Shown in pieces: positions 57,848 through 60,216 of a stretch of 64,000 bases of DNA. Both the position numbers and the translations under genes were made by a program. Source of the DNA: Actinomycetes bacterium (lineage in GTDB: Bacteria > Actinomycetota > Acidimicrobiia > Acidimicrobiales > Bog-793); NCBI GenBank assembly GCA_021798985.1, contig JAJZBI010000008.1, positions 1 through 64,000 of the forward strand. The letters are read 5' to 3'. The notes below the pieces were generated by a model. It searched no databases and was not told the DNA's origin. It was given only the letters and a program-made list of their open reading frames with translations. Numbering within the stretch: the stretch's first letter is position 1; each line of letters starts with the position of its first letter.

Positions 57848-58522
57848 TCAGCGAGCGCGGGGACGCTCGCTTGCCCGGGCGAGGCGCTCGGCGAGGTCTT
57901 GGTCGACGAGCGGTGCCATCTCCTGGCGCCGCCCGAGGCGCGCCGCCAGCGCGGCGGCGCCGAGGGTGGCGAGTGCGCCCGCCAGCGCGGCCCGGCGCCG
58001 CCCGCGCCGCGGGGGAACCAGCGCGCGCACGGCCTCGCCGAGGCCGGTCGTCGGACGCGGCGGGGGGTCGTAGAGGCGGTAGGGGGCGAGCCGCTCGATC
58101 GGCTGGGTGGGTGGCACCTCGCCCGGTCGCAGCCCGTCCACGATCGGCGTCATCGTCTCGAACTGGGAGCGGTGGGGCTTGGCGCGGTGATCCAGCCACG
58201 CGAGCACGAGCGCGACGCCGATGAAGGGCGAGCCGAAGTACAGCGGCCAGGGCCAGAAGCTGAGACCGAGACCGTCGATGACCACCCCGAGCGCGCCGAT
58301 GCAAGCCGGCAGCGCGCTGCGCGGCAGGAAGAACAGCTCGCGCCCGGCCGGCCGCCGGCTGGCGGCGATTGCGACCGTCAGGGCGAACAGCTCGATGATG
58401 CCGAAGGCGGTGCCGTAGAGCGCGAGCTCGACGCCGGTCCCGCCAAAGCCACGCAGCACGAGCACGAGGGCGCCGTTGAGCAACCCCCAGCACAGCAGCA
58501 CCACCGGGGCGGTGACCTTCAT
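57848..58522 (-). CDS. Membrane protein coupled to ctaD
   Basis: It has 224 residues: two N-terminal helices (VVLLCWGLLNGALVLVL; ALYGTAFGIIELFALTVAIA), a third near 85-115 covering LPACIGALGVVIDGLGLSFW and SPFIGVALVLAW, a long polar stretch with PRPTTGLGEAVRALVPP, and a hydrophobic segment AALAGALATLGAAALAARLG. It starts with ATGA overlap on ctaD and is last in the ctaC-ctaD operon, the position of small accessory oxidase subunits in actinobacteria. No sequence family is recognised. Confidence 0.65.
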   Translation of the reverse strand: MKVTAPVVLLCWGLLNGALVLVLRGFGGTGVELALYGTAFGIIELFALTVAIAASRRPAGRELFFLPRSALPACIGALGVVIDGLGLSFWPWPLYFGSPFIGVALVLAWLDHRAKPHRSQFETMTPIVDGLRPGEVPPTQPIERLAPYRLYDPPPRPTTGLGEAVRALVPPRRGRRRAALAGALATLGAAALAARLGRRQEMAPLVDQDLAERLARASERPRAR

Positions 58523-60216
58523 CGCTCGGGCTCCTCCTCGCTTGCCGCGGCGTGCGCGAGCAGCGTCTCGTGGGCATGGCCCTCGGCCGCCTCGACGGCA
58601 TCGAGCTCGGCCCGTTCGCGCAGATCGAGCAGCGGCGCCGGGCTCGTGACGTAGGGGAGGGGCTCGGAGAAGTTCAGCGGCGGCGGCGGGGAGCTCGTCG
58701 CCCACTCCAAGGTGAAGGCGCCCCAGGGATTCGCGCCGGCGCGCTCTCCGTGGTGCAGGCTCTTCACGATGTTGATCGCCAGGACGACCATCGAGATCCC
58801 GAGGATGCCGGCACCGATGCTCGAGATCAGGTTGGTGGTCGTGAGGCCGGCGGTCGGCGGGTAGGTCTCGACGCGGCGCGGCATGCCGAAGAAGCCCGAG
58901 AGGAACATCGGGATGAAGGTGACGTTGGTGCCGATCACCATCAGCCAGAAGTGTGTCTTGCCGAGCCGCTCGTCGAGTAGTCGCCCGGTGGCCTTCGGGA
59001 ACCAGTAGTAGAAGCCGGCGAAGAAGCCGAACACGCTGCCGCCAAAGAGCGTGTAGTGGAAGTGGGCGACCACGAAGTAGGTGTCGTGGAGCATGTAATC
59101 GAGAGTCGGGGAGGCCAGCATCACCCCCGTCGCGCCGCCGATGAAGAACTGGGGCAGGAAGGCGATCGCAAACAAGAGAGCCGTCCGATAGACGAGGCGG
59201 CCGCCGACGAGGGTCGAGATGATGCTGAAGTACTCGAGGCCCGCCGGCACGATCAAGAAGATGGAGACCACCGAGAAATAATCGTTCGGGATCTGTCCCG
59301 TCGTGAACATGTGGTGGCCCCACACCGCCATCGAGCCGGTCGAGAACGCCAAGAGCGCGATGACCGTCCATTTGTAGCCCGAGTTGCGTCGGCCGCTGAA
59401 GGTGGCGGCCACGTCCAAGATGGCGCCGACGAAGGGGAAGAACATCACGTAGACGACGGGATGGCCGTAGAACCAAAAGACGTCTTGGTAGGCGATGTTG
59501 AAGGTGTTCGACGCCGTGACGCCGGGGTGGAAGCGCGCCACCGTGAGCATCGACATCGCCGCCAACAAGGCAGGGAAGGAGGCGATCACCATCAAGGTGG
59601 TTCCCACCATCGACCAGGTGAACAGCGGCATGCGCATCAAGGACATCCCCTTGGTCCGCAGCCGCATCACGGTCCACAAGATGGCGCCCCCGATGATGAG
59701 CTGGCCGAGGCCGGCGAGGAAGGTCCCGGCGATCCACAGGTCCATTCCCTTGCCGGGGCTGTACTCGCTGCCCGACAGCGGCACGTAGGCGAACCACCCG
59801 TCGTCGGCGGCGCCGTGGGAGGTGAGGAAGCCGCCGACCATGCCGAGCGCGCCGAAGAGGTAGAGGTAGTAGCAGAACAACAGCAGGCGGGGCGCGGCGA
59901 TCGTCGGCGAGCCGATCTGCAGCGGCACGAGGTAGACGCCGAGGCCGAGTGCGAAGGGCGTGATGGCGAGGAAGATCATCCCCGAGCCGTGCATCGTGAA
60001 GAACTCGCTGTAGAGGTGGGGGGAGAGGATCGACATCCCCGGCAGTGCGAGCTGCGAGCGCATCGTAAGTGCCATGGCACCGAAGACGAAGAAGAAGACG
60101 AGCGCCGTGCCGAGGATCAAGAGCGCGATCCGCTTGTGGTCGGTCGTGAGCAGCCAGCCGGCAACGCCCCGGCGAGGGACGGGCACGGTCGGAACGCTGG
60201 CGGGAACGGTCGTCAC
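58519..60216 (-). CDS. ctaD: Heme-copper oxidase subunit I with atypical proton channels
   Basis: Catalytic subunit, 565 residues, twelve helices. Low-spin heme ligands are His76 and His387, heme a3 ligand His385, and CuB ligands His252, His301 and His302; the cross-linking Tyr256 is present in YGHPVVY. The D-channel Glu of GHPEVY is Val254 and the D-channel entry Asp of PDMAFPR is Thr105. The K-channel Lys of PTGVKVFSW is Glu328 (VPAGLEYFS). Start GTG 60216 is 10 nt after the ctaC stop with an AAGGGG site; the open frame extends 12 codons further. Family membership is certain, mechanism is not. Confidence 0.94.
   Translation of the reverse strand: MTTVPASVPTVPVPRRGVAGWLLTTDHKRIALLILGTALVFFFVFGAMALTMRSQLALPGMSILSPHLYSEFFTMHGSGMIFLAITPFALGLGVYLVPLQIGSPTIAAPRLLLFCYYLYLFGALGMVGGFLTSHGAADDGWFAYVPLSGSEYSPGKGMDLWIAGTFLAGLGQLIIGGAILWTVMRLRTKGMSLMRMPLFTWSMVGTTLMVIASFPALLAAMSMLTVARFHPGVTASNTFNIAYQDVFWFYGHPVVYVMFFPFVGAILDVAATFSGRRNSGYKWTVIALLAFSTGSMAVWGHHMFTTGQIPNDYFSVVSIFLIVPAGLEYFSIISTLVGGRLVYRTALLFAIAFLPQFFIGGATGVMLASPTLDYMLHDTYFVVAHFHYTLFGGSVFGFFAGFYYWFPKATGRLLDERLGKTHFWLMVIGTNVTFIPMFLSGFFGMPRRVETYPPTAGLTTTNLISSIGAGILGISMVVLAINIVKSLHHGERAGANPWGAFTLEWATSSPPPPLNFSEPLPYVTSPAPLLDLRERAELDAVEAAEGHAHETLLAHAAASEEEPER

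Follow-up and report, generated by a model that had tools for sequence, protein, structure and literature searches.

The window, that is, the whole stretch of 64,000 nucleotides analysed, carries a cytochrome oxidase locus with genes for subunits I and II, a small membrane-protein-like product, a candidate assembly factor and a paralog of the cytochrome b of the bcc complex. These genes, together with four codons of ctaD that mark positions of interest, are as follows:

56846 to 57763, plus strand: CtaG-like assembly factor (NCBIfam caa3_CtaG, E 1e-4, below cut-off)
57848 to 58522, minus strand: small membrane-protein-like open reading frame (weak tblastn matches, at the same place in loci L050, L197 and L209)
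58519 to 60252, minus strand: ctaD, cytochrome oxidase subunit I (profile matches, alignment and fold model)
59233 to 59235, minus strand: codon of Glu328, at the K-channel Lys position (alignment; place computed from the GTG at 60216)
59455 to 59457, minus strand: codon of Val254, at the D-channel Glu position (alignment)
59467 to 59469, minus strand: codon of Tyr250, the A2-like tyrosine (alignment)
59902 to 59904, minus strand: codon of Thr105, at the position of the D-channel entry Asp (alignment)
60227 to 60874, minus strand: ctaC, subunit II; CuA ligands intact, Glu54 at the mouth of the K path (NCBIfam CoxB and actinobacterial CtaC, below cut-off)
62076 to 63488, plus strand: qcrB paralog, cytochrome b of the bcc complex, with PDWY present (NCBIfam bc1_QcrB_actin, 572.8 bits, cut-off 500)

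The ctaD reading frame encodes 577 aa from a GTG at 60252 or 565 aa from a GTG at 60216, and residues are numbered here from the latter, as in the initial annotation. The protein scores 533–535 bits against the NCBIfam CtaD profiles, less than their curated cut-offs of 670.75 and 880 (the actinobacterial subunit I profile, with the cut-off of 880, gives 533 bits), while the SoxB profile yields 93 bits against 535 for CtaD. Among solved structures, CtaD of Mycobacterium smegmatis is the top phmmer match (E 3e-142). An AlphaFold model of the window protein (mean pLDDT 91.8) superposes on M. smegmatis CtaD with a Z score of 54.6 and an rmsd of 1.5 over 523 aligned residues at 44% identity.

Alignment to M. 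smegmatis CtaD, with residue names taken from PMC11189923, agrees with the initial annotation in that the haem and CuB ligands and the active-site tyrosine are all kept (His76, His252, His301, His302, His385, His387, Tyr256) and that Val254, Thr105 and Glu328 replace the Glu, Asp and Lys of A1 enzymes (Val254 = Glu266, Thr105 = Asp115, Glu328 = Lys340; also Tyr256 = Tyr268 and Ala325 = Thr337). The loss in the D channel is wider than that annotation described, extending to Asn121, Asn139 and Asn207, whose positions hold Val94, Leu112 and Ala178 in the window. These channel residues are named by Rhodobacter numbering. The K-channel positions of Ser299 and Thr359 are occupied by Leu267 and Ala325, and Tyr250, which the annotation did not mention, takes the place of the Tyr in the A2 motif YSHPxVY.

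The window protein belongs to a clade of which 39 distinct members were retained after removal of repeats, spread over several groups of actinobacteria, among them Streptomyces, Pseudonocardiaceae and Paraconexibacter. Named members include Streptomyces carpinensis, Amycolatopsis taiwanensis, Pseudonocardia autotrophica and Paraconexibacter antarcticus, strains known as ordinary soil isolates. Four of 40 related genomes hold a member, the window genome counted in, and a scan of GTDB species by sequence patterns gave seven members, L047–L053. These patterns did not include position 328 and did include the Tyr250 position (FWFYGHP), so the scan taken alone is biased toward Tyr at 250. Profile searches found members in 8 of 150 genomes from the genus of the S. 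carpinensis genome and in 10 of 249 from the class of the P. antarcticus genome; matches in 14 of 200 genomes from the family of the P. autotrophica genome, one of them (L183) canonical; and, at E 1e-165, members in 2 of 395 genomes of the window's class, where the remaining six matches were canonical. An even sample of the phylum (396 genomes, E 1e-170) returned 7 matches, with a clade member only in the window's own genome. Because so few of the genomes surveyed at the level of genus, family, class and phylum hold members, the clade is judged patchy and uncommon. No member was found among solved structures in the phmmer search with the window protein.

Several rows were kept out of the 39. 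L183, at 623 bits, lies above the search threshold but contains GHPEVY and PTGIK and is placed among canonical rows; L184 is an apparent copy of L052, judged on their identical residue strings; and L135, L170 and L185 are the genes of L050, L047 and L053 met again. The comparison set consists of 130 other oxidases, four of 134 rows having been removed as identical or too gappy. A plasmid-borne origin was considered and rejected, with identity of at most 47% in the 30 plasmid matches listed and below 60% in all 880 matching records.

Phylogenetic analysis was conducted with a quick method, with SH-aLRT supports and no bootstrap, and its trees and AU tests are without B-, C- or NOR-type rows. 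A tree of 62 rows groups the first 12 members in a single branch (SH-aLRT 100), the sister of which is the actinobacterial A1 group (SH-aLRT 99). With 21 channel-linked columns removed, a tree of the 39 members and 42 other rows again joins all 39 in one branch (SH-aLRT 100), nested within the actinobacterial A1 group (SH-aLRT 99), so the divergent branch proposed in the initial annotation is recovered when the channel columns are out. The clade and the actinobacterial A1 rows thus form a single branch, as expected of descent among A1 subunit I sequences. A topology that unites the clade with the main A2 branch is worse by 60.5 log-likelihood units and is rejected (p-AU 0.004, from 12 clade rows and 14 rows of that branch, of which L073 has GHPEVY); for a wider A2 set, which is itself not one branch, the difference is 393 units. 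Given the tree, the AU test, and Phe rather than Tyr at position 250 in 13 of 39 members, plain A2 identity was rejected.

Across the clade, the redox site is intact and the D path is not. The six His ligands, Tyr256, Ala325, Glu328 and Tyr329 are each found in 39/39 members. At the position of the D-path Glu286 (254) there is Val in 38 members and Leu in one, and never Glu; Asn121 and Asn207 are kept in none, Asn139 in one, and Asp132 in three, with Glu in a further two. The 130 other oxidases keep these residues in 128 (Asn121), 128 (Asn207), 125 (Asn139) and 124 (Asp132) cases. The set of Asp, three Asn, Ser and Glu278/286 that characterizes the A1 D channel is therefore not that of the clade. 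Position 105, that of Asp132, holds nine residue types among the 39 members, with an entropy in the 97th percentile of 498 columns, and position 250 holds Tyr in 26 and Phe in 13. The Ser of the A2 motif YSHPxVY is Gly in the 12 members aligned first and Gly or Ala in the wider clade strings. The initial annotation had also raised the prospect of compensating residues at shifted positions; no conserved acid was found in the D path when all positions with a charged residue in 70% or more of the members were listed. Two close pairs give dN/dS of 0.11 (0.040/0.355) and 0.21 (0.039/0.185), and no stop codon occurs inside the match of any listed member: ctaD of this clade is under purifying selection.

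The K path presents a different picture. Position 328 is Glu in 39/39 members and in 0/130 other oxidases, and, of the positions that are charged in most members (at least 70%), it alone has a carboxylate where the canonical residue is Lys. Its entropy within the clade is zero, as is that of 86 other columns. Neither polar residue that accompanies Lys in A1 enzymes is kept: Thr351/359 is Ala in every member, as Lys354/362 is Glu in every member, and the Ser291/299 position (267) is Ala, Leu, Ile or Gly throughout. The view that both channels are without their signature residues therefore stands for the D channel and needs revision for the K channel, where the Lys has given way to a strictly conserved carboxylate.

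The K path begins at a Glu of subunit II (PMC8361435), and this mouth residue, Glu54 in the window, is kept by alignment in 37 of 39 members, the exceptions being L053 and L193. The CuA ligands of subunit II (H, C, C, H, M) are complete in all 39, by which the clade enzymes would be cytochrome c oxidases, not quinol oxidases. In the comparison set, ctaC was found beside 106 of the 118 oxidases that have the Lys, with the mouth Glu in 105 and a gap in the remaining one. Twelve oxidases have Gln, Ile, Met or Val in place of the Lys; ctaC was found for 11 of these, none of which has the mouth Glu. These 11 amount to roughly three events, since about three lineages account for all of them (the archaeal one, the actinobacterial Lys-to-Gln group and the L002 type).

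The L002 type comprises divergent oxidases of the window genome and its relatives (L002, at G000:C57:17744-19060 on the minus strand, L160, L161 and L156), which have PTGFIFL or PTGFIYL, and so no K-channel Lys, and Gln for the mouth Glu of subunit II; L002 retains GHPEVY and reads GSRRMAF at the D-channel entry. The actinobacterial Lys-to-Gln oxidases (L028, L029, L031 and L070) have a mostly intact D channel and have lost the mouth Glu, a mirror image of the clade. L002 is one of three COX1 genes in the window genome, which has a canonical one on contig C67, this one on C57 and the clade ctaD on C59; other COX1 genes are likewise present in all nine genomes checked that hold a clade member.

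Gene neighbourhoods were compared across 29 loci (20 stretches of 18 kb, eight of 4.5–17.6 kb, and the window). In every one ctaC adjoins ctaD, and in 28 a QcrB paralog lies near, the exception being the 4.5 kb locus L035. QcrC and QcrA are both present in 12 loci, the window having QcrB only. At the level of genes, a bcc complex is encoded alongside the oxidase, as for the actinobacterial bcc-aa3 supercomplex. P. antarcticus has its genes in the order ctaC-ctaD-small ORF-ctaG-qcrC-qcrA-qcrB. The small reading frame at 57848..58522 has no NCBIfam or Pfam match and, from its place and look, is probably a CtaF-like subunit IV, while the L049 counterpart of the CtaG-like frame matches Pfam Caa3_CtaG at E 6e-52. 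Three Pseudonocardiaceae loci (L196, L208 and L213) have qcrA and qcrC matches only 31–42% identical to those of P. antarcticus and in another order or strand, a sign that the bcc genes of the locus have been rearranged in some members of this family. QcrB3 of Streptomyces coelicolor (SCO7236) was considered as a possible part of such a locus; it has been shown as a protein in spores, and the passages of that study dealing with it make no mention of any adjacent ctaD (PMC7931247).

A gene for subunit III (CtaE) was not found at any of the 29 loci at E 0.1, a search in which the same query recovered 7/7 positive controls and which a divergent CtaE could escape; the best match short of the threshold spans 36 residues (E 0.28, in L204). 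Each of six genomes searched has at least one COX3 gene elsewhere, so that a canonical CtaE may be shared.

Formate dehydrogenase is encoded near ctaD in 12 of the 29 loci (L047, L050, L194, L197, L198, L199, L205, L207 and L209–L212), a count made on clade loci only. The alpha subunit in L047 passes the NCBIfam formate_DH_Act cut-off (1539.5 against 1400), and 11 of the 12 alpha genes have an in-frame TGA ahead of an HSS motif, L198 lacking it by the pattern used. SelD matches occur in seven loci, six of them also with formate dehydrogenase; the SelD name comes from a family scan in L050. The window has no formate dehydrogenase near ctaD, and two are encoded elsewhere in its genome. On the ctaG side of the window's oxidase locus, at 53846–56770, lie moaC-, mobA-, moeA- and mog-like genes, named from reading their translations, which would suit a molybdoenzyme partner. 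The suggestion of an acidophilic or iron-oxidising host found no support: the named members are ordinary soil isolates, no iron-related genes were seen among the scanned neighbours of the clade loci, and the conspicuous neighbour, if any, is formate dehydrogenase.

Ordinary enzymes in which the D-path Asp or Glu is replaced have impaired activity and no longer take up protons through the D path (PMC8361435), and the clade enzymes must therefore have a substitute for it. The earlier reading that such an oxidase uses another proton path or pumps more weakly is plausible on these sequences. We favour a specific form of it, to which we assign a probability of roughly 55%: the clade would represent an A1-derived secondary cytochrome c:O2 oxidoreductase that has abandoned the D path and rebuilt the K path around Glu as its main inner proton route, probably with weaker pumping. 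A rebuilt K path is favoured because Glu328 is invariant and the subunit II Glu is retained; it would have fewer polar helpers, because Thr359 and Ser299 are lost as well. Its ancestry lies with the A1-type aa3 enzyme that forms part of the actinobacterial bcc-aa3 supercomplex. Electrons would pass from a bcc complex with its own QcrB (and, in some genomes, QcrC and QcrA) to CuA, haem a and the haem a3/CuB site, and protons from the inner side would enter at Glu54 of subunit II and travel through Glu328 to Tyr256. This one modified path may deliver the protons for chemistry and perhaps some that are pumped, as in B- and C-type oxidases. Such an enzyme is predicted to pump fewer than one H+ per electron, to have no need of subunit III at a D-path mouth, and to show a pH profile governed by a carboxylate rather than an amine. 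More tentatively, and with the odds somewhat against the full combination, a family A lineage may have converged on a single channel like that of B- and C-type enzymes, with the D path lost, the K path remade as a carboxylate-based "E path" that runs from the subunit II Glu through Glu328 to the cross-linked Tyr, and subunit III shed, to become a dedicated, low-coupling terminal oxidase of a bcc complex that is often tied to a selenocysteine formate dehydrogenase.

The same losses could be read as the mark of a scalar, non-electrogenic oxidase in which neither inner channel works, substrate protons are taken from the outer side, as has been proposed for cNOR, and Glu328 is structural or tunes redox properties. 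Such an enzyme would fit the disappearance of all known D-path residues and two K-path helpers and the lack of a detected subunit III gene nearby (29 loci), and could act as an electron overflow in the nine genomes, all of which have another COX1. We nevertheless consider it unlikely, because a carboxylate fixed at the exact Lys position, with the mouth Glu in 37/39, is what a working inner path would leave, and oxidases whose Lys became neutral did not keep that Glu (0/11). A full pump working by another route, whether a hydrated D-like cavity without the usual side chains, Tyr250 as an A2-type shuttle, or an H-path, has the canonical fold of the predicted model and the Tyr at the A2 position in 26/39 members to recommend it, and A2 enzymes do pump without the Glu. 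Phe at 250 in the other 13 speaks against the shuttle, and A2-like rows keep Asn121, Asn139 and the Asp, whereas the clade has lost Asn121 and Asn207 in 39/39 and Asn139 in 38/39; this reading seems to us rather improbable.

Two further readings fare worse. Channel loss marks NOR-type members of the superfamily, and on that ground the protein might be taken for a nitric oxide reductase, or for a relative without catalytic function; this is very improbable given Tyr256, all metal ligands and the CuA ligands in 39/39. The NOR motifs H-X-Arom-X-E and H-H-X-Arom-Arom-X17-E (PMC3084760) are also absent from the window protein, which has HPVVY and HHMFT at those places. A decaying duplicate whose channel residues are rotting would be in keeping with D-channel positions that are among the more variable columns and with two further COX1 genes in the window genome. 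Yet selection is purifying, the listed matches have no internal stops, and the ligands and Glu328 are invariant across members of widely separate families; conservation and dN/dS largely refute decay, which we regard as scarcely credible.

What is understood of the D path and the K-channel Lys in family A pumping comes mostly from crippled mutants. Here, in cultivable actinobacteria and beside other oxidases, a natural family under purifying selection has lost the D path and carries Glu in place of the Lys in every member. It makes testable whether the D path is needed for pumping and whether a carboxylate is able to replace the Lys, and it is a caution for metabolic models, in which not every annotated ctaD should be credited with 4 pumped H+ per O2. 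Searches of open-licence papers, by title and opening of the abstract, found no account of an A-type clade with this Lys-to-Glu replacement.

Among known systems, the A1 aa3 oxidase of the actinobacterial bcc-aa3 supercomplex (M. smegmatis CtaD, 6adq and 7rh5) is nearest in sequence, fold and tree. It has in common with the clade the metal ligands, the active-site Tyr, CuA and a QcrB partner, and differs in that the clade lacks the D-channel Asp, Asn and Glu residues, has Glu for Lys and Ala for Thr, and has no subunit III gene found at its loci. The A2 oxidases (YSHPxVY; Thermus caa3, 2yev) resemble the clade in having no Glu286 and a Tyr where 26/39 members have Tyr250, but the clade has Gly or Ala after that Tyr instead of Ser, and A2-like rows keep Asp132, Asn121, Asn139 and Lys362.

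With the B- and C-type oxidases (ba3 and cbb3) the likeness is in probable working only: a single K-like channel leading to the Tyr, and no D channel. These types have one channel ending at the Tyr and a lower pumping stoichiometry (PMC8079940). The B type is defined by the absence of a D channel and by a K channel made of Thr, Ser and Tyr (PMC3084760); the clade shares the former and lacks the latter set, and the window CtaD has A-type profile matches and fold. In a survey of 1216 subunit I sequences, only 4 were without the residues of their own class, all of them placed with the B type (PMC3084760). Natural loss of Lys362 is shared with family A oxidases of archaea, which have lost the K channel repeatedly (PMC8239418), and with the actinobacterial Lys-to-Gln group. 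The archaeal and Lys-to-Gln oxidases examined have lost the subunit II Glu and mostly kept the D channel, and the clade has done the opposite.
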